From: Liolophura sinensis
Taxonomy: Eukaryota > Mollusca > Polyplacophora > Chitonida > Chitonidae
Direction of reading: 5' to 3'
Assembly: GCF_032854445.1 (NCBI RefSeq)
Contig: NC_088303.1
Span: 18,547,501-18,611,500, forward strand
Length of the DNA stretch: 64,000 bases
Translations under genes and position numbers: made by a program
Notes under the pieces: model-generated
What the model was told of the DNA's origin: nothing
Database searches by the model: none
Seen by the model: only the letters and a program-made list of their open reading frames with translations
Shown here: positions 1 through 58,500 of the stretch, in pieces
Position numbering within the stretch: position 1 is the first letter of the stretch
How the letters are laid out: each line of letters opens with the position of its first letter

Positions 1-3000
1 CTTCCTTACACCAGAGTGGAATAGACTGGCTAACATACAGGTACTGTTTGATTTACTGCTAATAGTTTAGTAGCAGACATTGTTCTCTTACAGCCTGCTC
101 TGCTGTAGTGGACATCCCATGTGAATTGAAGAGGGCAGTATGTCATTTCATCCGAGATAAGCAGTTTCCATCATTGCTCAGAGCTCAAACCTATTCAGGT
201 ATATACCCTGTGGAAGGCCAGATCATGGGCTACAATCAGGTCCCAACATTCTGGCATTTGTAGTTTTCATTCTACTGAGCAAACTCTGATTTCTTCAAAA
301 TGGTGGATAAAGGAAAGAAAAAGAACTTAATAATTTTTTCAGGACTGGGACACATACCATTGAACTCATACTACATGTAAAATGCCTGAAAACTTTCTTT
401 TCACCTTCTGTTCAGGATTTTTTTTTTCACCTTCTGTCCACGAGTTTAATTAAAAAATATTTAGCAAGAAAGATTTAAAATAAAATTAGTGAGAAAACGG
501 AAGAAAACTGTGACCTCCAAAAAGGATGACAGATCCTGCTTTGCATATGGAAGTAAAACTTTTTGGGGGATTTAAGTAGGCCTACTCACTCTTTAACAAC
601 ACCTGAAATTTCAAACTCATCTGATCAGCGTTTTTTTTTTTTTTTTTTCTCGGTAAAATTTCAATACAATTTCAGTAGGTGTCCTGACAGGACATTCTTA
701 TGTATGTCATCTTGATATAAGTTTGCTGGTGTTGCCTCAGGATTTTATTATGAAGTCAGATGAAGTTATATTTGTATGCCACACACAATAAACATGTATA
801 TTGACTTCGTTACTTTTGTGCAGGTGTGGCTGGAGGCAGCTATCCAGGTGTTCTTCTCATTAGGGCCGGCATGGGGAGGTCTCATCACCATGTCCAGTTA
901 CAACAAATTCAAACACAACTGTTTCAGGTGAATATCTTTTGAAGAATTTCTAAATGTGCATCATTTAAGTTTAAAGTCACACAAACATTGTCACTGTCCT
1001 AAAAATAATAAGTATTTTTGTAATTTTAGTCTTATTTTAGTGCTTTGTTGGAATGTTCTTGAGAATATTCACAAAACTGATTACTTTATGTCTATCAATA
1101 CCATAATTCATATCAGCGCATTACGTGTCTCTATTTATGGGAAAGTTTGGGACTGTCAGTCTGTCCGTCTGTCTATCCAAATATTGTCTGATTTTGATTA
1201 AAAAATATTGTACATGCAGGTTCATTTTTTGTATCCTCAGATGAAGTGTGAAAACAGGCTGTATTCATGCTTTCTTGATTCTCATTAGGTTTCTGTTTCC
1301 AGGCTTCATGTATTTGTCTGATTTTGGTAATTTTCTTTGCACAGATTCATCCTGCGGACCCCGATATGAAATATGTAAACCAGCTGGATCTATTCACGAG
1401 TTTTCCAGTATTAGTGTGGGATATACATCCTTTTAATTTGCTTGTTTCTTCAGGGACGCTGTTGTGACCACAGCTGCGGACTGTTTTACTGGTCTGTTTG
1501 GAGGCCTTGTCATTTCCTGTGTACTGGGCTTCATGGCTCATGAGGCTGGTAAAGACATTTCTGAGGTGGTTATATCAGGTGAGTGTTGTGACCACAGCTG
1601 CAGACTGTTTTACTGGTCTGTTTGGAGGCCTTGTCATTTCCTGTGTACTGGGCTTCATGGCTCATGAGGCTGGTAAAGACATTTCTGAGGTGATTATATC
1701 AGGTGAGTGTTGTGACCACAGCTGCAGACTGTTTTACTGGTCTGTTTGGAGGCCTTGTCATTTCCTGTGTACTGGGCTTCATGGCTCGTGAGGCTGGTAA
1801 ATACATTTCTGAGGTGGTTATATCAGGTGAGTGTTGTGACCACAGCTGCAGACTGTTTTACTGGTCTGTTTGGAGGCCTTGTCATTTCCTGTGTACTGGG
1901 CTTCATGGCTCGTGAGGCTGGTAAATACATTTCTGAGGTGGTTATATCAGGTGAGTGTCGTGACCACAGCTGCAGACTGTTTTACTGGTCTGCTTGGGGT
2001 CTACAAGAGGTTTTCTTTTCTTTTTTGATATTTTCTGTGGTTATTTACCAGTCTATTTTGTGTGCAGGGTTTGTATGCTTCATGGAAATCAGGAAATATC
2101 CTGGAATATTTGTCCAGGTTTGAAAAATCCTTAAAAGTGCTTAAATGCGCACCTACCCTCCTGAAAACTCAGCAATCGCCATATCAGAACAGTGCAGTGT
2201 TGAATGATTTGTTTTACAGGAAAGAAAGGCAGTGTTCTTTGGAACAATTCTTTAGTGGTTTCGTTTTCTTCGATATGGTGACATTGTTGCCTTTGCCATA
2301 AAGCGGTAGGCTGTTGAACTAATAACCCATACTTCAACGTTGTGGAGTGTAAGCAGTGCCAATTAAAAAAAGAGCAAGTATCATAACGTGGAATGGCCCT
2401 TCTATCATGTAGCTGTTCTCTCTTATAAAGGATATGATTGCTGCCATGTTACAGGAGTTAAATTAATGGAAGAATCGTCTTTTTTTTCTGCCACATGAAT
2501 GAGAGTGAACAGTTTGTGAAGTGTAAAAGGTCAACAATGCATCCTTTAAATACAGTGAATGGCCAATGAAATGCAAAAGAAAATATTTGGCTATCGACTA
2601 AAGCTTTTTGTCTTAGATTTTGAAAGTTAGCCAAAAATCCTTTGTCATGTCCTGAGGTGGCTAAGACGAAGCAAATTTTGGCTTTGGCAGGAATGTGTAC
2701 GAACCGTGTGTGTGAACAGTTCCTTACCTTTTGTATTGCTTCTCTGTACATTGTACATATATGTTGATGTTCTGTGCCCATAATTGTAGCTATTAAACTA
2801 TAATTGCATAAAGCCCATATGTAGATATCTGGGCACTTCATCCACAAATGTATGTCACAGTATAATAATGGATCAGCCATTTAATGCTCATTAAACACTG
2901 GTAACATTTAGCAGTGATGTACATATAAATGTTAGAGGTGTTCTTTTGTTTCAGATCCGGGTGTGGCATTAGTGGTGTACCCTGAAACCATCAGTAAGCT

Positions 3001-6000
3001 TCCACTCCCTCAACTCTGGGCCTTCCTCTTCTTCCTCACCCTGATATTTCTGGGATTGGATAGTGAGGTTAGGGACTTCTCACAGCTTGGTACATCCATT
3101 TTCATGTGTAAACGTGCACTTCTGAACAATTTGTTGTCTCGCAGAACACACGTACATATACATGAATTAGGTTTTGTTTGTCAGGTGTTCAGAGTGACAA
3201 TTTTCATAAAATATCTCCAGAGCTAATAGATAGCATGATTTTTACCAAAATTGGGTTTGAACCTTAATTACATGGCCGTTAAGAACTGGTCAGTCTTTGG
3301 GATGAGCCTGTCCACTCTACACATGTATGTGCTCAGCAGTTTTCTGACCAAAATCTTGTAAAATATGCAATTTCTGTAAAATAACTCCACTCTGTGAAGA
3401 GGCATTCCATTTTTAATTTCTTCTGCCTCTAAGGATTATTAAGAGAATATACGTGTAAATAAATTCTTATTCTTTTTGACTGAACAGCTCAGGGGTGATT
3501 GGGATATTTTCTTACAAGGGAAATGGGTCTGTCAGCAACCTACTGATGGTCGTGGGTTTTCACCGGACTCTGCCCAGTTTCCTCCCATCATAATGCTGGC
3601 TGCCGTCGTTTAATTGACATGTTCTTGAGTATGGCATAAAACACCAATCAAATAAATAAATAAATACGAGGGAAGTGTGTACTTCATGTGTACTTCATAA
3701 TTTCTGTGTTTCAAGTGTGAAAACTGATGGGGAAAAGATTACCAAGTTTCAGGTGGTTACTGCTGTCTTGTTTCAGTTTGGCATGTTTGAATCCTTGTGT
3801 AGTGGACTCTGCGATGAATTCCCTAGGGTTTTCCATGGCAAGAAGAGATTGGTCACAGGTGTTCTGGCTATTTTTGCATTTATCCTTGGATTACCATTTA
3901 CCACTCAGGTAAGTTTTCAGATGTGTGGGCACAGCATCAGCATTAAGTGTAGGTAGTGAATACTGGAGACTAATTCAGGCACCAGACATACATACATACA
4001 TGGTCATAGATAAGAAAGCTGTTTTATCTTCAATCTGACACAGAATTTGGCCTGTGGAGAGTTTCAGCTTACTCCATGAACATGGACAATAACAGGGTAA
4101 TGAGATAGGATCAGTTGTGGTTTGATTTTCTGCTATCAGCTTTTCGAAAAATCTTTTCATGCTTTTTATTTGCAGATTCTCTTCAAGTAAGCATCACTTC
4201 AGTGTGGCTGAAATACTACCAGTGTGGTTTTAAACCTTGATCATTCATGTTACTGAACAGTCTGGAAATTTAAACTTTGGGTCATTAAGTTCAGTTTTGT
4301 TTACAAAACTGTTTTTCCTGTCTTCTATTTCATTGATGTCTAATACAATGGTGAAAATCTCCCTCCTGGAGAGACCTTTACATTCTTTCTCTGGAGTTCC
4401 AACGTGAGCGCAAGTGCATGAATCTAACTTGGCTTACAGTTTTATTGTGTGTAAAACTATTCTTTTAAAATTTATTTACACTTTCTGCTAATTTGTTTTT
4501 TGAACTTGATACAAATGTGTAGACTTTCTTCCCTTGGGTATCACTTTCTTTTTAAAGTGATATTTTATGCTGTTTCATTACTTCATGCAAAGTTCTAAAC
4601 TTTGTTAACTTGTTTTCATTGCTGATATACAGGGTGGCATGTATGTGTATCAAATACTGGACTGGTATGCGGGAACTTTCTGTGTTCTCACCATAGCCTT
4701 GCTGGAGTGCATCATTGTTGGCTGGATATATGGTGAGTTAACATGATGGAATGATCTTTAGAGTGATCTCCCCTTACTTAAGGGCAAAGATAACACTTAC
4801 TTGAAATATATGTCCAATAAAAGGCCTTTAACCACTGTCAGTAAGCACAGTTCAGTCTGTTTTTTAGAATTTCTTCAACTTCTGTTGGGAGGGTCACTTT
4901 TGGCAACAGGTCAAGTTTGCATGTATCCTGTTCAGTCTATGTTGTCCTGTTTTATGTAAACATCGGTGCTGTATTTCTCACGGATGCTGGAACATGGAAT
5001 TGCATTTGAACCTTATCTGACCATCTTGGGACCAGTGACAACACATCATGGTTTTACCATTTAACACACACAGACTGGCAGATTTCACCATTCTACATGC
5101 ATATGCATATACTAGATATATGAATGTGTTTGACTGATGGTTAATTGAAAAAAACTATTTCTAGTAAAATGTATGGATGTGATGTCACTGATACCCTCTG
5201 CACACTGCCGTTTAATCAGATGTGTTAAAACCAGTTTATTGGTTGGAAAAAAGGGTAAGGAAATAAACTATTTTCCTGGATACTGTATTATGGTATTTGA
5301 TCTGATACTTCATTTTAGTGTTTTCTTTGTCTATAATATGACATAATGGTCTTTAGAGTGATCTCCCCTTACTTAGCATTTTGTGTGCGGGAACCCATTC
5401 TACAATAGGGTCGACCCTACTCAACCCGATGAACACTGTATCACACTGTAACTAGTAACTACCCCATGTGTTGTCCACCACCACCCCATTTCTCCCCACC
5501 CTACCCTTATACTTCTTTGATAACATTGGGATGGAATAGACCAACAAGAACATTGTATAATTCTGTAGTACAACAAAACCAGTAACTACCCCATGTGCTG
5601 TGTGTTTTTAGGTGCAGGCTACTTCTCTGAGGATATTAACCAGATGTCTGGTAAGAGACCGTCACTGTTTCTCAGGCTCTGCTGGGTGGTCATCACTCCC
5701 GCTCTCTTACTGGTGAGTACTTGGGATGAAGCTGAGGTCAGTCAGCTACACTGGCTAACATGCTCTCAGCATAGCAAGCAATGAGAGGAGCTTACACACT
5801 ATCATGGCTATTATTCTAGAGCATAGCATTAAACAACTATGAAGTAATTAAATAAATATACATGTAATTATAAAAATTTGTTTTGTTGTTTGTTTTTAAT
5901 ATTTTGGTGTATTTTAAAGAAGATTTCCCTTAAAAGAGTTTGGTTCAAGGGTGAAAGTAAATGAGCAAGATCGCAAAGGAAATCACTAGCTCCTGGAACA

Positions 6001-7262
6001 AGATCTAGTAGGAAGACCCTGTAAAACAGCTGGCTCAGCCAAGGAGCAGCTGATAAGACCTTGAAATGTCTTCTCTGGGCTCTGCCAGGTTTCCTCCCAC
6101 CATATGCTGTGGTATAATTGAAATATTTTTGAGTATGATGTAAAACACCTGTCAGATGAATCAAATGAATCATTTTCAGCTAATATTGTAAGTACTATTA
6201 CCATAAATGGTAAGTATATGCATGTTCTACAGTCTACAAATGCATTGAGGAACACACGGCCCATGTATTCTTTGGGAGTTACAATATAAAAATTTGAAGC
6301 TTACGCCAGATCTTTTTACAGGACACTTGGGTCTGACAGTCACCTGAACATTGTTATTACCCGTCTGACCCAGGACATTGTTTTTTTTCATCATGGCGGT
6401 TTAGTTTTACAGCATCTGATTGTTGTGTTCTGTTTCAGGGTGCTTTGATATTCACCGTGGTTGTGTACAAACCTCCCACGCTGGGGGAATACCATTACCC
6501 TGGCTGGGCCATCACTGTAGGCGTGCTTATCTCCCTTGTCTCTGTTATCCCAATACCCGCTGTCTTGATCTGGAATGTGGTTAAAGCACGTGGCAGCTTT
6601 TGTCAGGTTAGTCTTCAGTGTGTATTAATACCTACACCATGTGCCTTGATATCTATATTGTATCATTTATGAATAATGCTGTGAAAACTGTGTGTGGAAC
6701 CTTGATGACAATAATTGGCAGATGTCTTTTGTGGAATCATTTGTGGATCTGTGTGTTCGGTGAAGACAGCTTGTCCTTCGCCAGTATGGCAACAGCAAAT
6801 CTGTTTGACCAATGTCAAAAAGTCAGTAATTTGTAGTGGTTTGTAGGGTTTTTTAATTTCGTTCACACACAAAACTAACTTACATGGTAGAAGTGAAAAA
6901 TTCAGGAAAAACAAGAAGAAAAGCAAAAAGAAAAACCATAATACTATGAAATATATAATATCATAGTTGAATGTGAATTAAACAATGCTGAATATTGCGT
7001 TATTCAAACAAGCAATGGTTTTCTTGCTTGTTGTGCTTACCATATACCTTCTGACCTGATGTATTGTGGGTTTCAGCGGTTCCGACATTTACTACGGCCT
7101 GATGAGAGCTGGGGACCAATGGAAGAGAAGATGAGAGAGAATTACATAGAGAGGCGGACTCAGTTGAGGGACAGGGGCTGGATGTTCCGTTTGTTTGGTC
7201 TCCACCGGCGTGGGAATGCCCACGGGGTAGAGTCAGAACCAGCTCTGCATCCAGAATCATGA
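1..7262 (+). CDS. SLC6 neurotransmitter:sodium symporter, 3' part (partial)
   Basis: This is a plasma-membrane transporter that couples uptake of a small amine or amino acid to Na+ and Cl-. Exons: 1-40 (partial), 824-927, 1454-1578, 2955-3067, 3777-3908, 4633-4732, 5612-5712, 6439-6606 and 7077-7262. All junctions are GT-AG and the phases agree, giving about 355 residues to the TGA at 7260-7262. The first residues read [13 protein letters not shown]. Next come TM6 with its unwound [10 protein letters not shown], the SYNKF motif, TM7, EL4 ([11 protein letters not shown]) and TM8 with LGLDS, whose Asp-Ser pair is at the family's Na2 site. TM9-TM12 and a short basic cytoplasmic tail follow. TM1-TM5 lie left of the window. 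By eye, the TM10-TM11 stretch ([18 protein letters not shown]) resembles dopamine/noradrenaline transporters, but EL4 also resembles glycine-type members, so the substrate is not assigned. The third exon listed is tandemly repeated downstream (see 1461-1992). Confidence 0.95.
1461..1992 (+). repeat. 124-bp tandem array duplicating an SLC6 exon plus its splice donor
   Basis: Units begin at 1461, 1585, 1709, 1833 and 1957, exactly 124 bp apart; the fifth is truncated near 1992. Unit 1 is nearly the whole coding exon 1454-1578. Units 2-4 repeat about 118 bp of the exon plus the donor (ATATCAG|GTGAGTG). They lack the exon's real acceptor (TTTCTTCAG at 1445-1453). Because 124 is not a multiple of 3, read-through changes frame and meets TGA at 1665-1667. 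Only the first donor (1579) gives the conserved protein. Units 3 and 4 share substitutions (GCTCGTGAG, AAATAC) absent from units 1 and 2, which suggests stepwise duplication. An assembly artefact is less likely because the copies differ, but it is not excluded. Confidence 0.95.
3523..3664 (+). mobile_element. SINE family 1, 5'-truncated copy in an SLC6 intron
   Basis: The copy carries the family core (GTCAGCAACCT, CGTGGGTTTTC, TTTCCTCCCATCATAATGC), the 3' signature TTGAGTATGGCATAAAACAC and an AATAAATAAAT tail. The tRNA-like head is missing. It is in sense orientation to the transporter. Confidence 0.85.
4881..4991 (+). repeat. 111-bp dispersed repeat, copy A
   Basis: This sequence starts TCTGTTGGGAGGGTCACTTT and ends TTCTCACGGATGCTGGA. 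It recurs almost unchanged at 9031-9141, with only a few substitutions and no indel. Copy A lies in the intron 4733-5611 of the transporter gene. It has no recognisable coding capacity. Confidence 0.9.
6060..6171 (+). mobile_element. SINE family 1, 3' fragment in an SLC6 intron
   Basis: The fragment matches the core from TCTGGGCTCTGCC through TTTCCTCCCACCAT to a diverged tail (TTGAGTATGATGTAAAACAC). It is in sense orientation to the host gene. Confidence 0.75.
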
Positions 7263-36674: not shown

Positions 36675-38395
36675 GTGCCTGATGGGATGTCCAGCAGGAC
36701 GGCAGGCTAACCAGCTGGCCGAGGCGCCTGATATGGTGTCCAGCAAGATAGCAGACTGAACATTAACTTGCCATAAGGTGTCTGATAGGGTGTCCAGCAA
36801 GATAGCAGGGTCTAAATTAGCCTGCCATGAAGTGTCTGATAGGGTGTCCAGATACGGCCAAGTTGTCTGATACGGTGTTCAGGCTTTGGACCAGCTGGTC
36901 GAGTTGTCTGTTACGGTGTCCAGTAATACGACAGGATCTTGACCAGCCGGCCGAGTTGCCCGATAGGGCGTCCAGCAATATGACAGACTATAGACAATCT
37001 GACCGAGTTGTCTGGTAGGGTGTCCAGCCATACGACAGGCTTTAGACCAGCTAGTCGACGAGTCTGATGGTGTGTCCAGCAAGATCACAGCTTTTATACC
37101 CGCTAGTCGACGTGTCTGATAGTGTGTCCAGCAAGATCACAGGCTTTAGACCAGCTGGCCTGGGTGTCTCATAGGGTGTCCAACAATACGGCAGGCTTTA
37201 GAGCAGCTAGCCGAGTTGTCTGGTAGGGTGTCCAGCAATACGACAGGTTTTAGACCAGCTGTTCGACGTGTCTGATAAGTGAGTCCATCAATACCACAGG
37301 CTTTAGACCTGGTGTGCGACGTGTCTAATAGTGTGTCCGGCAAGATCACAGGCCTTAGATCAGCCGACCGAGTTGCCTCCAGCAATATGAAAGGCTTTAA
37401 ACAAGCTGACCGAGTTGCCTCATAGGGTGTCCAGCAATACGGTCAGCTTTAGCTCAGCCGACTGATTTGTATGATAGAGTGTCCAGCAATACGACAGGCT
37501 TTAGACCAGCTGGCCGACGTGTCTGATTTATTTATTTACTTATTTGATTGGTGTTTTAAGCCGTACTCAAGAATATTTCACTTATACGACGGCGGCCAGT
37601 ATTATGGTGGGAGGAATCTGGGCAGAGCCCTGGGGAAACCCACGACCATCCGCAGACTGCTGGAAAACCTTCCCACGTACGGCCGGAGAGGAAGCCAGCA
37701 TGGACGTGTCTGATAGTGTGTGATAGTGTGATAGCAAGATCACAGATCAGTTGACCGAGTTGCCTGATAGTGTGTCCAGCAATACGATAGACTTTAGACC
37801 AGCTGACCGAGTTGCCTGACAGGGTGTCCAGCCATACGACAGGCGCTAAGTCAACTGGCCGAGTTGACCGATAGGGTGTCCAGCTATGCGACAGGCTTTA
37901 GACCTGCTGACCGAGTGGCCTGATAGGGTGTCCAGCAATACGACAGGCTTAGACCAGGTGGCCGAACTGTCTTATACGTGTTTCCAGCTATACCACAGGC
38001 TTTCTCCAACTGGTCGAATTGCCTGATAGGGTGTTCAGCCATACGACAGGCTTTAGTCCAGCTGGCCGAGTTGCCCGATAGAGTGTCCAGCTATGCGACA
38101 GGCTTTAGACCAGCTGACAGAGTTGCTTGATAGGGGTATAGGGTGTTCAGCAATACGACAGGCTTTAGGCCAGCTGGCCGCATTGTCTGGTAGGGTATCC
38201 AGCAATACGACATGCTTCTGACCAGCTGGCCGAGTTGCCCGATAGGTGTCAAACAATACGACAGACTTTAGATTAGCTGGACGAGTTGCCCGATAGGTGT
38301 CAAACAATACGACAGACTTTAGATTAACTGGCCGAGTTGAACGATAGGGTGTCCAGCAATATGACAGACTTTAGATCAGCTCTAGCTGCTTCGTG
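36675..38395. repeat. Minisatellite of about 52-58 bp units
   Basis: About 28-30 units carry the blocks GGGTGTCCAGCAATACGACA, GGCTTTAGACCAGCTGGCCG and AGTTGCCTGAT. Units vary by substitution and small indels. A SINE (37526-37702) interrupts the array. Apparent long open frames here come from the repeat and are not genes. Confidence 0.92.
37526..37702 (-). mobile_element. SINE family 1 inserted in a minisatellite
   Basis: On the plus strand it reads TTTATTTACTTATTTGATTG, GGTGTTTTAAGCCGTACTCA and CTTATACGACGGCGGCCAGT, then GGCCGGAGAGGAAGCCAGCA, where it is cut off before the tRNA head. GACGTGTCTGAT occurs on both sides and may mark the target duplication or simply be array sequence. Confidence 0.88.
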
Positions 38396-46500: not shown

Positions 46501-49500
46501 AATGTCATTGGAGATGTCGTCCTGCAACAGACAGCATTGTCACATGTACATACAGGTACACTCCCTCATATATGTGTACACTTGTCAATGTACATCTACA
46601 ACAGACAGCACTGTCACATGTACATACAGGTACACTCCCTCATATATGTGTACACGTGTCAATGTACATCTACAACAGACAGCATTGTCACATGTACATA
46701 CAGGTACACTCCCTCATATATGTGTACACATGACAGTGTACATCTACAACAGACAGCATTGTCACATGTACATACAGGTACACTCCCACATACATGTGTA
46801 CACGTGACAGTGTACATCTACAACAGACAGCATTGTCACATGTACATACAGGTACACTCCCTCATACATGTGTACACGTGACAGTGTACATCTACAACAG
46901 ACAGCATTGTCACATGTACATACAGGTACACTCCCTCATACATGTGTACACGTGACAGTGTACATCTACAACAGACAGCACTGTCACATGTACATACAGG
47001 TACGCTCCCTCATATATGTGTACACGTGACAGTGTACATCTACAACAGACAGCACTGTCACATGTACATACAGGTACACTCCCTCATATATGTGTACACG
47101 TGACAGTGTACATCTACAACAGACAGCACTGTCACATGTACATACAGGTACACTCCCTCATATATGTGTACACGTGACAGTGTACATCTACAACAGACAG
47201 CATTGTCACATGTACATACAGGTACACTCCCACATACATGTGTACACGTGACAGTGTACATCTACAACAGACAGCATTGTCACATGTACATACAGGTACA
47301 CTCCCACATATATGTGTACAGGTGACAGTGTACATCTACAACAGACAGCATTGTCACATGTACATACAGGCACACTCCCACATATATGTGTGCTCGTGAC
47401 AGTGTACATCTACAACAGACAGCACTGTCACATGCACATACAGGCACAACTCCACATACATGTATACACATGTCAATGTACATCTACAACAGACAGCATT
47501 GTTACATGCACATACAGGTACACTGCCACATACATGTGTACACCTGTCAATGTACATCTACAACAGGCACCACTATCACATGTACATAGAGGCACACTCC
47601 CACATACATGTGTACACCTGTCAATGTACATCTACAACAGGCATCATTGTCACATGTACAGAGAGGCACAGTCCCACATACATGTGAACAGGTGTCAATG
47701 TTCATCTACAACAGACAGCATTGTCACATGTACATAGAGGCACACTCCCACATACATGTGTACACCTGTCAATGTACATCTACAACAGGCACCACTGTCA
47801 CATGTACATAGAGGCACACTCCCACATATATGTGTACACCTGTCAATGTACAGCTACAACAGACAGCATTGTCACATGCACATACAGGTACACTCCCACA
47901 TACATACATACAACACAAAAGACCTGCATTCAAGTACAGCATGGGGCAGACACATCTACAAGATCTTTTTAGAGCTTCCTTTGAAACACCTCCAACACTT
48001 GATAAAAAGACAGTTATCATGCATTTCATGAAAATACTACAGCAGCCCCATTTATGTACGAGGCATTCAACTAAAAGTCCTTTAGTGTCCACATGTATAT
48101 GAATGTAGTCACATATAATAAATCCTATATCAGTAGGAGTATTTGGAATGCTAGAGATCATTTTTAATTTTTAAGCATTAGGTTGTATGGTCCATATCAA
48201 ATCTATTCAAGGCCAAGGAAAACAAAAAAATAAAAACAAAACACTAACTCGGCCAGCACAGTCTACAACACAAATGTCAGTAGTCTTGTGGTTGCATCTG
48301 ACAACTCTTATTGTGTCCTCTAGTGTCAACTGAGATATTTCCATATGTTAGGTTGTTAAGTTCTCCTTGGTTGGAAGTAAGGACGGGGTTCGGTCTGTTT
48401 GTAATTTTACAGATACCTTTCCATTCCGTGACCGAGCATTTTTAATTGTACATCTACATGGAGCTATTACACCTGTAGCAAATTACCACTGTATATACCC
48501 AAGAATACAATGATACCAACAAAAAGCAACCAACCACCACAGGCACAGCAATCAGCTGCCACTGATTCAGCAATCAACCATCAATGGTACAGCAATCAGC
48601 TGACACTGATTCAGCAATCAGCCATCACTGGTACAGCAATCAGCTGACACTGGTTTAACAATCAGCTTCACTGGTAGCTTCAGCAATAAGCTGGCACTGG
48701 TTCAGCCATAAGCTGGCACTGATTCAGCAATCAGTCACCACTGGTTTAACAATCAGCTTTACTGGTAGCTTCAGCTATTACATGTCACTGGTTCAGCAAT
48801 TAGGTCGCACTGGTTCAGCAATAAGCTGGCCCTGGTTCAGCAATCATTTGAGACTGACTCAGCAATGAGCCATCACTGATTCAGCAATCAGCCACCACTG
48901 GTTTAACAATCAGGTTCACTGGTAGCTTCAGCTATTAGCTGGCACTGGTTCAGCAATCAGCTGGCACTGGTTCAGCAATCAGCTGGCACTGGTTCAGCAA
49001 TCAGTTGACACTGGTTCAGCAATCAGCTGGCACTGGTTCAGCAATCAGCTGACACTGGTTCAGCAATCAGCTTCACTAGTAGGTTTGGCAATCGGACACC
49101 ATACATTGTATATACTTGAGTACGGCGTAAAACACCAATCAAACAAACAAATAAATCATTGGTTGAGGGTTGATGAGCTGTGGCAAATATAGTCAAATAT
49201 AGCTTTTTATAGTCAAATGAGCGGAGTCTGTCACCTAGATGTAGACAACAAAAAATAAAACAAATTTAACACTTTGTGTATCCATTGAGTTTACTTTCAT
49301 ATGTATGCCCTGAAGGCAGCTGACCCATCTGTGTATTGAGAAGGACACACACAAATTAATTTTGATGGGAATTTTAATCCAGCAGCAGGACTTTTCATTG
49401 CATCATTTTATTGACGGCAAATGTTCCTTTCCCAGCTCATCATGATGATGTCACACTAAAGACTGTATGACATTACAACGATGTAGACGTTACGCTATCT

Positions 49501-52500: not shown

Positions 52501-55500
52501 ACTAGATGGCTACATGTAGTACATGTACATACTGTATTTGAGATAAAAATTTGCTCCAAAAACACTATTTAGGTTAACTTATGAACTTGATCTATAACAG
52601 TCATGGACGAAATCTTAGGCATATATGGTTGTCTACAACCACAGCAAATTATATTTGAAAACAAATGAAATGAATGAACAAATGGTTGTAGGTCAATGTT
52701 CTTCAAGAAGGACTTCTTCTCTTTATATTTGATGAAAGATTTTATTTATTTATTTCACTGGGGTTTAAATGCCATACTTTAACTGATATAATTGTGGATA
52801 TGTTTATGAGTGCTACATGAAAGCAAACAATATGACTGTTAAAAAATCAGAGTAATTTGTATACAGTGGGAAAATTGTAAATATGACATTAATACAAATC
52901 ATACATAAAAATACAAAAAATACATTCATAAATGACAGACAAAAGAATACTGTCTAACAGCAGTACTAATGAATAAAAGTAGATGGTACGTGTGTGGACC
53001 ACAAGTCAAGGGGCAAAATGATGTTTTCAAGGTCAGGTATACATACATCCCTCCTAACCAGAACAATTGGTCTACAGACTGCCATTGGACTGCTAGATTG
53101 AACACCTGTCTGGGCAATCTTTAGCTTGAATCACTTGTGTGTCCTGAAACAGGCCAACAAATCTGTCACACATGAACTGTATGTCCATGTATATGGTGGA
53201 ACATTTCCTGACAGGGTCTGTGTGTGATGCTGGACTTGAAGAAAGGACTCACATGAACACCTGTGCATATCAAATGCACATCTGTGATCCACATTTAAAT
53301 GGGTTCCTTACTTATCTGAATGGATGTCGCTTCTCAAACACGTAAGTTCTCAAAGTAAGCAGTGTGAGTGCCATGCTCGATGTCAGATTCCTTTTCAGCA
53401 TGCACAAAAATGGCTGACCTGATAACATTGGGTTTAACAAGACCACGGAGACCATCCACAGAGGCTCCCCGCAAGGCAATACATGACATGAATGAACATT
53501 ATGTTGATTTTCCAACTGACCTCAATGAATCCGTTGCGAGTGTTCTCCAGATTACACATATATGACCAGTCCTGCATGTTCAGCAGAAATGCAATACAGT
53601 GCTCCAGCACTTCCTGGCTAGGCTGGATATCTGGTGATAAACAAATAAACAAATAAACAAAACTACATATAGATTCCTATCGTTCATGTGGCTATATCAC
53701 CAGGTTCAGGACTGACCCTCATGACAAGGTGGACTTGCTAATACATGAATGGTCAATCAATACATTATTTACATTAAAGGATGCATGAAATGATTCTGTG
53801 TATCTCTTAATATACAGTTCAGGATGGGTAATAATATAGAACAGTACAAAAAAAATTCTCAACCTCCTATTCGGGAGGCTTTAAATGGCTTTAAAGTACA
53901 ATTTCCAGAAGGCCCTAGGCCTGTGGTGATGACATCAACAATGACTGCTGTGAAAACAATTCTGTAGGAGGAACTAAATGAGGCGTTAAGGCAGCCCCAT
54001 GGAGCCATGCTGTCCCTAAGCACACTGAGTGATTTGAAATAGGCTACTCCAGGATTGAAAAGCAGGGGTCTAGTCAAAGGCCTACATTTACATCAACTGA
54101 CTTTTAATACTGGATAGTGTAACAAATGTAAATAATTCCACAAATGTAAACCCACAAATACAGAACTTTTAAAACTTAAGCATATGTTATGAAGTTAAAT
54201 CAACTTTATTCAGGGCTAGTGTCAACTTCCCTTACTGAAAGTATTAGGTGTAATGTGTATTGTAGTTGTAGCTAAATGTATGGAAATAATTCAACCATGG
54301 AAGAATATTTTACTCAGCAAAGTGAACTGAATCATGAAAACTTTCCCAACTGGCAACAGCGATCTGAAAAGCTTTCATTTTATCTCCAATTACATAGCAG
54401 CTCTGCACATGAAATTTCTGTGCATGACATGAAAAATCATTGTCAGCTTTTATCTTAAAATTTGCAACTCGTGTCTGTAATACATTAACACACTTTCTTT
54501 TGAGATTCTTTGTGTTCTGTTGGCATAATGCCTTAATCTTGACAAGACATTTTGACTGCTATTCAATAAACATGAGCATAGAATCCTGCTCTGTGTCGCC
54601 TATAGGCCACACGACAGCACTGTGACAGGACGCAGGATTGGTTTGAGACTTGGAACTACAAAAGTGGAACGTCACCTACTGGAGTTGGCCTGTGCAGCAT
54701 GTCACAACAGAGACAACAGTATGCCAGGCAACAGATTTGTAGAAAGAGATGGAGTAATGACAATGTATGTCTTGGGCATTTAGGTCAATAAACATGTTTA
54801 CAAATGCCCTTAAAGAGGACTGTGTCTGCTCTTACCCTGGTCCAGTCGTAATGCTGTGATGCAGGTCTTAGCCTTCTTGGCCACATCTTGTTGGGTGGAT
54901 CCCTCAGGGAATGTCTCGTTGAGAAAGAACTGCTGTAGGTCAGCCAGCACCATTTGCCATTTGATGTGTTTGGAGAGTTTGTAAGTTGAGTCTTGTGTGA
55001 GGAAAGAGTCCGCTTTGCTCAGCAGCTGGCGAGATCGGTCAAATATCTGTAACAGGTACATGTGTATACCTTAATAAGGAGTTAGCCAACACCTGAACCT
55101 GTCAAATATCTGTCACAGGAACGTGTATACCTTAATAAGGAGGTAGCCAACACCTGAGCCTGTCAAATATCTGTAACAGGTACATGTGTATACCTTAATA
55201 CGGAGTTAGCCACCTGAACCTGTCAAATATCTGTCACAGGAACGTGTATACCTTAATAAGGAGGTAGCCAACACCTGAGCCTGTGAAATATCTGTAACAG
55301 GTACATGTGTATACCTTAATAAGGAGTTAGCCAACACCTGAACCTGTCAAATATCTGTCACAGGAACGTGTATACCTTAATAAGGAGGTAGCCAACACCT
55401 GAGCCTGTCAAATATCTGTAACAGGTACACATGTATACCTTAATAAGGAGGCAGCCAACACCTGAACCTGTTAAATATCTGTCACAGGAACATGTGTATA

Positions 55501-58500
55501 CCTTAATAAGGAGGTAGTCAACACCTGTGCCTGTGAAATATCTGTCAAAGGTACATGTGTATACCTTAATAAGGAGGTAGCCAACAACTGAACCTGTCAA
55601 ATATCTGTAACAGGTACACATTTATACCTTAATAAGGAGGTAGCCAACACCTGAACCTGTTAAGTATCTGTCACAGGAACATGTGTATACCTTAATAAGG
55701 AGGTAGCCAACACCTGAGCCTGTCAAATATCTGTAACAGGTACATGTGTATACCTTAATAAGGAGGTAGCCAACACCTGAACCTGTCAAATATCTGTCAC
55801 AGGTACATGTGTATACCTTAATAAGGAGGTAGCCAACACCTGAAGATCTTTGTCGTTCTTCACAGCTTAGCTGTTCACAACATAGATTCTGTTCTCATGA
55901 ATTCTATAAACTGAAAATCGGTCATTCTAACTGTCCTGTCCGCAGCGTGTCAAAGCTGTACGTTAAACAAGTTTCCTTCAATCCTTAAGTAATTCCAAAT
56001 CTGCATCATTTAATTATTCCTAAATAATAAAGACCATAATGAAACAATTAACACAAAGGCAAAAATCAAATAAACAAATGATAAAAGTTGGTTGCTCTTG
56101 GCATCAGTGAACTAAAATGGCGCAGACTGTTAGATATACACCACCTGTCTGCTGGTTGGTTCGTCCGTTGGTCAAATTCTGAACATGCCATCTTTTAACC
56201 CAGGTTGTTACCTATCAAGGGGCTTGAGCGCAAAAAAACAATAACTATTTGCAGGTTTTCACAGCTACGACAAATATGCCCTTTCCTGACACTGGAATGA
56301 ACAGTGCCCTTTGTTCTGTTGTAAACATCAAAACTTTCACTCACCCTCAGCTCCATGCAGTGCCTGGCTTTGGCTATTAGGATGGAGATGTAATTCTTGT
56401 CCAGCCCTGCTGCTAGCGGTTCCAATCCCTGTTGAATCTCCCTGGGCAACTTCCACTAAAACAGTAAGCAGTAATTATGAGATGATGTAATATCAGCAAT
56501 TTTACTGTAGATGTTTTTAATAATCATTTATTTCATTGGCATTTTTCTTATTTGTTTTAATTAGTGCTTAGTTTGTTGCCCCTCCCACCCGCTCCCAATG
56601 CCCCTTTTATGTAATTGCTGACTTTTAAAATAAGCTGAACTGAATTTCAGTATGTTCATTAAGAAGAGATGATTAACAGAGGTATCTTGCCTTATCATTC
56701 AATGTCAGCAGGTTGGAGGCTTGTCTTCCCATCTTGTAGGACAATTCCTTGACCAAATGGCGGATGAGACTGGGATCATAGGCACAAATAAGTTGTCGCT
56801 CCAAGTCACCCCCTACAAGTCGGCTACTATCTGTATTAAATGAGAGAACAAAAAGTAACATACATGTAAACTGATGACAAATGTACATCGATTCTTAGCA
56901 AATATTCATTACAATTCACTATCAATTCTGCTCATTACACAAAAAAAAAAATCTCCCATGATGACGTGCTGCACATTGATATTTTCTTCATACAGAGTAC
57001 ATGAGCATGACTGAAAATGACTGACGCATGACAGCCTTGTGCGAAGACTACGACCCTAAACTATTCATCATCAAATGCATGAAATTTGAACCACAAGTCT
57101 GTCTCTCGTTTCAATCCTATGTATATACATATACATGTATTATATTTTATTATGTGTGTAAAAGTAAAATTAAGACAAAAAAAAAAGTTATACAACATAA
57201 CCGACTACCCTAATTTCCAGAAAGGGTCACATTAAGTGAAATAAAATTTTTTGGAAGAGTAATTTTTTGAAAAAACAAGCCAAATCTGAGGTGCCCTGTG
57301 GCCAGTGACAGAATATCCTCTTGATTGGCAATGCAAAGGGAGACAATCGATTATTCAAGATCTTCAGTCATTAGTCACTAAATCAGATTTATTGGATGCC
57401 ACTGTTGCTATAGTAAGGAAAATGCCCCTGGAGTAAATGCAATAAAAACAAATCTTTCAGCTTTATCACTGCTGAGAAATTGTTCTGTTTCTATGGAAAG
57501 TCCCAGCTGAGTCACAAACCTCTAGAGAGACTAGATCTGGGTGACCTTGACCCCACTGTGTAAGAGGTGTCATCCATGAAGGTGAAGTCGTCTTCCTCGT
57601 ATGAAGAAAACTCTGAGTATTCATCTTCATCAAAATAGGAGCGGAGGTCACTCTTCAGGAGAGTTTCGCTGAAGTCAGAGTCCCTGGGTAACGACTGCAA
57701 AATGTGCCTGCAACAAATTGACATGAAACATAAAAATCATCGACAAATGAGAAGAGAAAATTTAGTTTTACATCTTTTGCCTTAAAGGTGAACTTTAATC
57801 TTTGCAAATACAGACTTTTCTCACCATGACACAAGGTTCTGACCTCTTTACTGGTGAAAATAAAACATTTTTCCTTTATATAAATATGTGCATTTCTGTT
57901 GTCCAAGGTAAAACATAAATGCGCATCGCTGATCTGTCATTGTTTTTACAAATTTATGACACCTTCTTCATTCAAGTTTTATACAATATGACAGTTTGTC
58001 CATTGCCAGCTACATGGGGGAGGAACAAAAGAATGGCATGATGTTCCAAAATCAAGTGGAGACAAGCCTAAACTATACTGTCCAGATTTGTGTAGTTTGC
58101 GTCTTGCAATATCCCATATTTCTTATATTTCATGCCTATTTTACTTTAAAGAAGAAGCACATTAAAAATAAGTTTCAGGAAAGTTGACAACAACATTCTG
58201 GCTTTACATAGATCAAGTTTTCCAAAACTTTTTTGATCAAGTTTTCCAAATTTTCTTGTGAACTTTTTTTTTTACAGAAATTTATATGAATTTAAACCGT
58301 GGCAGGTGTGAATATTAACGACCAAAACTGAGGCCTCCATTTTGACAGGTCTCGAGAGTGAACCAATAATTCTGTCCAGTCAGAATAACTGAAGTGTTTA
58401 GTTTCCAGATCAAGTGGTGTTCAGCACATGCTACACACCTGATGGACATCCTTTGTTTTGAGCCAACATTTCCTGATATTCCATCCCACAGCATGCACTA

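Follow-up and report, generated by a model that had tools for sequence, protein, structure and literature searches.

We found that a 124-bp tandem repeat spans the boundary between exon 6 and intron 6 of an SLC6 transporter gene in the chiton Liolophura sinensis. With a probability of roughly 0.8, we read it as a minisatellite of the "mirage" type that came to lie across the exon-intron junction by chance, with the first copy serving as exon and the remaining copies probably belonging to the intron. A donor-spanning minisatellite of recent origin is the best explanation for the structure at this exon. The array was located near the start of the window, the 64,000-nucleotide stretch of DNA that was analysed, where TRF reported a 124-bp array at 1460-1997 with 4.3 copies, 98% matches and a score of 1020, far above chance. 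The features referred to below, in window coordinates, are as follows.

824..927, + strand: exon 5 (gene model)
1434..1453, + strand: modelled acceptor before the array, TAATTTGCTTGTTTCTTCAG, 13/17 pyrimidines
1454..1578, + strand: exon 6, functional copy, 125 nt, with GT-AG junctions and an open frame
1460..1997, + strand: array of four full copies plus 42 bp (TRF and copy differences)
1579..1584, + strand: donor 1 (GTGAGT) at the end of copy 1; frame kept, 650 aa in the model
1665..1667, + strand: TGA met via donor 2, 3 or 4 (gene model)
1703..1708, + strand: donor 2, identical nine bases
1827..1832, + strand: donor 3, identical nine bases
1951..1956, + strand: donor 4, with the same nine bases as donors 1-3; the partial fifth copy comes next
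1956..1997, + strand: partial fifth copy, 42 bp, with 2-3 differences; it may represent the founder duplication
2955..3067, + strand: exon 7, which continues the frame from donor 1

The initial annotation had described an SLC6 coding exon repeated together with its donor at 1454-1992. TRF and the comparison of the copies revealed that the array is real, but both ends had to be moved; the repeat starts at 1460, 6 nt into exon 6, and extends for 538 bp to position 1997 within intron 6. The four full copies occupy 1460-1583, 1584-1707, 1708-1831 and 1832-1955. Copies 1 and 2 differ at two sites, copy 3 differs from each of them at three sites, and copy 4 has the same sequence as copy 3. Over its 42 bp, the partial copy shows two mismatches to copies 2-4 and three to copy 1. 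In total, four sites vary among the full copies and two more in the partial copy. A search of the assembly (609,464,459 bases in 632 contigs) with copy 1 gave five matches among the best candidates scored, all of them at the SLC6 locus.

The differences between copies bear on whether the assembler multiplied a single copy, which we consider extremely improbable. The assembly paper gives a HiFi coverage of only 14X and states that haplotigs were purged (PMC11068029), which would favour such an artefact. However, the same paper gives a mean HiFi read length of 8,347 bp, well in excess of the 538-bp array (PMC11068029); moreover, the copies are distinguishable at the six sites given above, and similar arrays occur elsewhere in the assembly. 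An assembly error is unlikely, and the copy number could differ between haplotypes.

The host gene was modelled by a script that linked exons on the basis of GT-AG junctions, the reading frame and a splice-site consensus. The model contained 12 exons, running from 3.4 kb upstream of the window (stretch L005) to window position 7262, and encoded 650 aa uninterrupted by stops. The phmmer search of the model protein gave 540 bits to 9km4 and to chains named GlyT2, such as 9wbr, over about residues 25-609. Chains 9km4 and 9km2 (named "Transporter"), to which the protein aligned over residues 26-609, scored level with the glycine transporter 2 chains as the best solved relatives. This match over nearly the full protein, together with a PF00209 match in exon 2, upheld the SLC6 identity that had been assigned to the gene. 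As judged from its sequence, the predicted product is an SLC6 transporter whose closest named solved relative, by score, is GlyT2. The junction 1578/2955 produced no gap in the alignment of the protein to 9km4 and 9km2. We take exon 6 to encode TM7 and the start of EL4. Three of the four variable sites change a residue in the exon frame, namely V to I in unit 2 and H to R and D to Y in units 3-4; the H and D of unit 1 are the residues of 9km2, while 9km4 has N at both positions. Since the variable sites are few, this comparison of the units is weak evidence. As a separate observation, the TM1 motif in exon 1 (L005 5577-5760) reads GYGVGIGDLLRFPY where 9km4 has GYAVGLGNVWRFPY, with Asn replaced by Asp and Trp by Leu. 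This Asn belongs to the first sodium site, and the two changes, seen in the predicted protein, suggest that ion coupling may be unusual.

The nine bases CAGGTGAGT (CAG/GTGAGT) were identical at all four donors, at 1579, 1703, 1827 and 1951. Because an exon end and its donor both lie within the repeat unit, the real donor is reproduced exactly in each full copy. With donor 1579, the gene model gave a product of 650 aa, while donors 1703, 1827 and 1951 each gave 413 aa ending at the TGA at 1665-1667. The additional length is 124 nt (+1) for donor 2, 248 nt (+2) for donor 3 and 372 nt (+0) for donor 4; donor 4 alone would regain the downstream frame, yet the stop in unit 2 precedes it, so that its product is also 413 aa. 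The gene model thus agreed with the earlier description in which only the first donor keeps the frame and a stop lies in unit 2, and that description is also right that a single acceptor is common to all units and that each complete unit carries an identical donor.

The real acceptor at 1434-1453 lies outside the repeat unit. The earlier statement that the donor but not the acceptor is repeated is correct for this real acceptor, but it does not prove that the units lack acceptors altogether. Each unit, read from GT to CAG, forms a 124-nt GT...AG cassette with 9/17 pyrimidines before its AG, and each repeat copy contains an internal AG (before 1628, 1752 and 1876) preceded by 12/17 pyrimidines; the 11 modelled acceptors of the SLC6 gene have 9-13 pyrimidines of 17. 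The anatomy of the unit permits a new intron between the AG/GT of neighbouring copies. The units could, in principle, be spliced out singly as GT...AG cassettes, with the donor restored each time, so that mis-splicing would heal and the array could ratchet silently. The unit ends in TATATCAG/GTGAGT, which places AG/GT at both ends with 124 nt from GT to AG; the pyrimidine count before the unit AG matches the lowest among the modelled acceptors of the SLC6 gene; and tandem duplications containing AGGT have been documented as a source of intron gain (PMC4974935). Nevertheless, 9/17 is a poor pyrimidine tract, and for this reason we rate excision of single units as very doubtful. The chiton unit resembles those duplications in being bounded by AG/GT as a potential GT-AG intron, but, as the process is described in that source, it differs in that our reading needs no new exon and the unit is a potential intron only (PMC4974935).

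Under the mirage reading, the array would have arisen in a few steps. First, a short duplication may have inserted 42 bp of exon 6 directly after the donor; alternatively, a full copy of earlier origin may have been truncated. Second, slippage or unequal exchange between the repeats would have multiplied the 124-bp interval, including the exon end and the donor. Duplication followed by expansion of the 124-bp interval, in this presumed order, would explain both the start 6 nt inside the exon and the 42-bp end. Third, the first copy would have remained exonic, because its donor is the one that yields the transporter, and the later copies would have become intronic; the frame effects come from the gene model, and the use of the donors is presumed. 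Splicing would mainly use the first donor, with the exon defined from its acceptor at 1453. Low-level splicing from the later donors to a nonsense isoform is plausible; it would end at the TGA at 1665, and nonsense-mediated decay should remove the products. The extra donors would need no function. Classic work on duplicated donors in vitro found that the intron-proximal site can win; if it won at exon 6, the gene would break, which counts against predominant use of the first donor. The fourth step has been partly demonstrated, in that tandem arrays abound in the genome and some of them lie at the donors of other conserved exons.

The initial annotation had instead proposed that the donors form a ladder that tunes transporter output, in which four equal donors compete and the share taken by the later, nonsense donors sets the amount of transporter. 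We consider this improbable; the ladder is unproven and is not the favoured reading. It would fit the four identical donors and the early stop that donors 2-4 share. Donor columns were also slightly better kept than other columns (identity higher by 0.031, positive in 9/12 arrays, Wilcoxon p 0.007), although these arrays had been chosen by a perfect motif, and the difference could reflect either selection or the way in which the arrays were picked. For this measure, 13 arrays were given and 12 were measured; the consensus of L023 contained no donor, and L019 was represented by 6 of its roughly 12 units. In contrast, the unit lengths showed no preference for keeping the frame; 7/27 array periods were multiples of 3, which is about chance (the periods were listed by hand, and L031 was entered as 60, where TRF gave 120 and 180). 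Furthermore, the GT was frequently lost in five of the 12 arrays, being kept in 54-84% of their copies (lost in 16-46%), and was kept in 91-100% of the copies in the other seven.

The human ABCA7 gene offers evidence on both sides. In its intron 18 VNTR, the first GT is the exon's own donor, and use of the next-unit donor is described as giving an out-of-frame transcript (PMC5954066). Longer arrays are reported to accompany increased skipping of the exon that follows and reduced expression, the latter speaking for a ladder, whereas retention of one unit through the next-unit donor is given as about 2% of transcripts, independent of array length, which speaks against it (PMC5954066). Given the association of length with lower expression and exon skipping, a quantitative effect of the chiton array on expression is possible, but it would probably not act by the proposed ladder route. 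The two arrays are alike in that the canonical donor, 1579 in the chiton, sits in the first repeat unit. They differ in that ABCA7 has a 25-bp unit in about 12 to 427 copies and is described as intronic, whereas the chiton unit is 124 bp, almost wholly exon and present in four copies.

The amphioxus mirages are tandem repeats of 10-160 bp over exon-intron boundaries, described in Adh3, the globins BflGb6 and BflGb9, TnC and PGBD5; many units carry splice signals, and copy number is described as differing between haplotypes while the host gene works (PMC3087553, PMC3902484). The RT-PCR results given in one of these reports include no interference with regular splicing, and the normal splicing described there argues against the ladder (PMC3087553). 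The chiton array is similar in that it spans an exon-intron boundary, its units carry donors and the outermost copy gives an intact product. It differs in that amphioxus is a cephalochordate in which splicing was seen by RT-PCR, while the chiton is a mollusc whose array was read in the genome; our study adds to the amphioxus work a donor-motif search for arrays elsewhere in the genome. Taken together, the amphioxus mirages and ABCA7, the closest systems in which splicing has been tested, suggest that the array is quiet.

We also compared the array with mutually exclusive exons. Tandem exon duplication with mutually exclusive splicing produces neighbouring, near-identical copies of a coding exon, and the chiton copies are likewise near-identical neighbours of a coding exon. 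However, the acceptor at 1434-1453 is unrepeated in the chiton (cryptic acceptors are possible), and the 124-nt unit length is not divisible by 3. Where splicing is mutually exclusive, the frame is preserved with either copy, whereas the stop at 1665 interrupts it for donors 2-4. Among the papers listed in the literature searches, none showed a donor-spanning array in a mollusc; the class of donor-spanning minisatellites is known, and the chiton array adds a mollusc case to it.

The genome was searched for three copies of CAGGTRAGT at steps of 109-139 bp, and the motif read backwards served as the control. The search gave 439 + 591 triple-donor matches compared with 75 + 60 for the reversed motif. 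As arrays on C1:1-53.6 Mb, these corresponded to 18 donor arrays and 4 reversed arrays among the matches listed. The donor motif itself was commoner than the reversed motif (69 versus 34 single loci in C1:1-2.79 Mb), so that the excess of 18 over 4 arrays was not significant once site frequency was allowed for (p 0.10). Similarly, the proportion of loci with at least three sites in C1:1-2.79 Mb (10/69 for the donor motif and 2/34 for the reversed motif) did not differ significantly (p 0.17).

To compare the sequences in front of the arrays, 26 donor arrays (L006-L031) were fetched, 19 from the triple-motif search and 7 clusters from another motif list, together with four reversed-motif arrays; the clusters at 1936177, 2063016 and 2759102, also within the first 2.8 Mb, lay outside this sample. 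Seventeen of the 26 were scanned. Four stretches contained no array start (L024, L026, L027 and L029), four were dropped for an open run of less than 20 aa before the first donor (L006, L008, L009 and L012), and L022 was dropped as a near-copy of L021. The 20 controls were three of the four reversed-motif arrays (L034 had only 17 aa) and 17 of the 20 flanks of ten arrays from the window. A Pfam-recognised exon preceded the first donor in 5/17 arrays and in 0/20 controls at E up to 0.001 (p 0.014); one control flank matched DUF7611 at E 0.055, under its cut-off. With SPT3 as the sixth, found by a PDB search, 6/17 arrays start at the donor of a recognised coding exon, as listed here.

L010: alpha-L-fucosidase (Pfam, E 5e-4, under the curated cut-off)
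L011: Fe-only hydrogenase large subunit, C-terminal domain (Pfam)
L014: Tsr1/BMS1 C-terminal (Pfam)
L016: GH31 (Pfam)
L018: SPT3 (PDB search, made for arrays and not for controls)
L019: [2Fe-2S]-binding domain Fer2_2 (Pfam)

In all six arrays, the exon match extended to within one residue of the first donor at most. The other 11 of the 17 scanned arrays had no accepted exon match; PDB was searched for 3/17 (L018, L023 and L030) and NCBIfam for 6/17. L023 gave nothing in PDB and a deoC match in NCBIfam at E 0.0058, under the cut-off, and L030 matched pentatricopeptide/cPPR chains in PDB; neither was counted. By eye, we took exons of DERA and KATNIP to be among the donor-array exons. The contrast of 5/17 with 0/20 indicates that arrays whose first copy is a real exon end occur at several conserved genes.

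A broader proposal is that chitons carry donor-spanning minisatellites at several conserved genes because the spliceosome reliably takes the 5'-most donor, which, helped by the silent excision of units, would let the arrays grow; we put this forward tentatively and regard it as rather unlikely in this full form. Taken singly, the SLC6 locus is a neat yet ordinary case; what gives such arrays broader interest is that they recur. As a class, they constitute a natural experiment in which near-identical donors with the same local surroundings are repeated, in some arrays dozens of times, at conserved genes and within one genome. The role of position by itself in donor choice, for which minigenes are the usual approach, could be tested by counting which copies are used; the assembly paper names public RNA-seq from five tissues (PMC11068029). 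Changes in copy number may also alter expression, as has been suggested for human ABCA7, or give rise to new introns.

Several individual arrays were noted in the course of this work. The array at L011 972-4747 (C1:5470572-5475616), which starts at the donor of the Fe-hydrogenase-like exon, has a 40-bp unit in about 94 copies and includes 68 perfect CAGGTRAGT motifs. L021 (C1:49737376) and L022 (C1:49776399) are inverted on opposite strands about 39 kb apart, and each consists of an exon-like stretch followed by a 26-bp donor array; their aligned upstream bases are alike at 967/987 positions (~98%), and the arrays have 12.6 and 13.6 copies with 26 gap columns in the array. One reversed-motif match, at C1:92961139-92961707, has units AAACAGGTGAGTGGAC and is itself a donor-like array. 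The 64-kb window contains long minisatellites at 36728-38381 (~52 bp), 46525-47905 (~74 bp), 48538-49082 (~22 bp) and 55038-55844 (~63 bp), and AGGTRAG was absent on both strands from the ten window arrays checked.

We also surveyed 60 SLC6 exon stretches (L036-L095) out of 109 PF00209 matches; they were mostly the best-scoring ones and were chosen regardless of arrays. Donors were picked by a script with a donor table, which yielded 59 donors, several of them weak picks, and none for L041. None of these 59 SLC6-family picks lay inside an array; a pick inside an array at L091 was wrong, with the real donor at 384. The idea that donors are hot spots for tandem duplication was dropped in view of this count and the non-significant excess of donor arrays. 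On these figures, donor-spanning arrays form a sparse class. TRF coverage was 3.8% in the 250 bp upstream, 0.3% in the exon match and 6.4-10.0% in the downstream 50-550 bp. On the simplest reading, introns often contain arrays, and an array at a junction is tolerated only where the outermost copy still serves. An SLC6 paralogue (L086 133-285) displayed the mirror arrangement on the acceptor side, with about three 53-bp copies of the intron end and exon start, the last of which is in frame. Additionally, a 41-bp array of 12 copies at L064 369-866 starts 9 nt into the intron behind the picked donor of an SLC6-family stretch.
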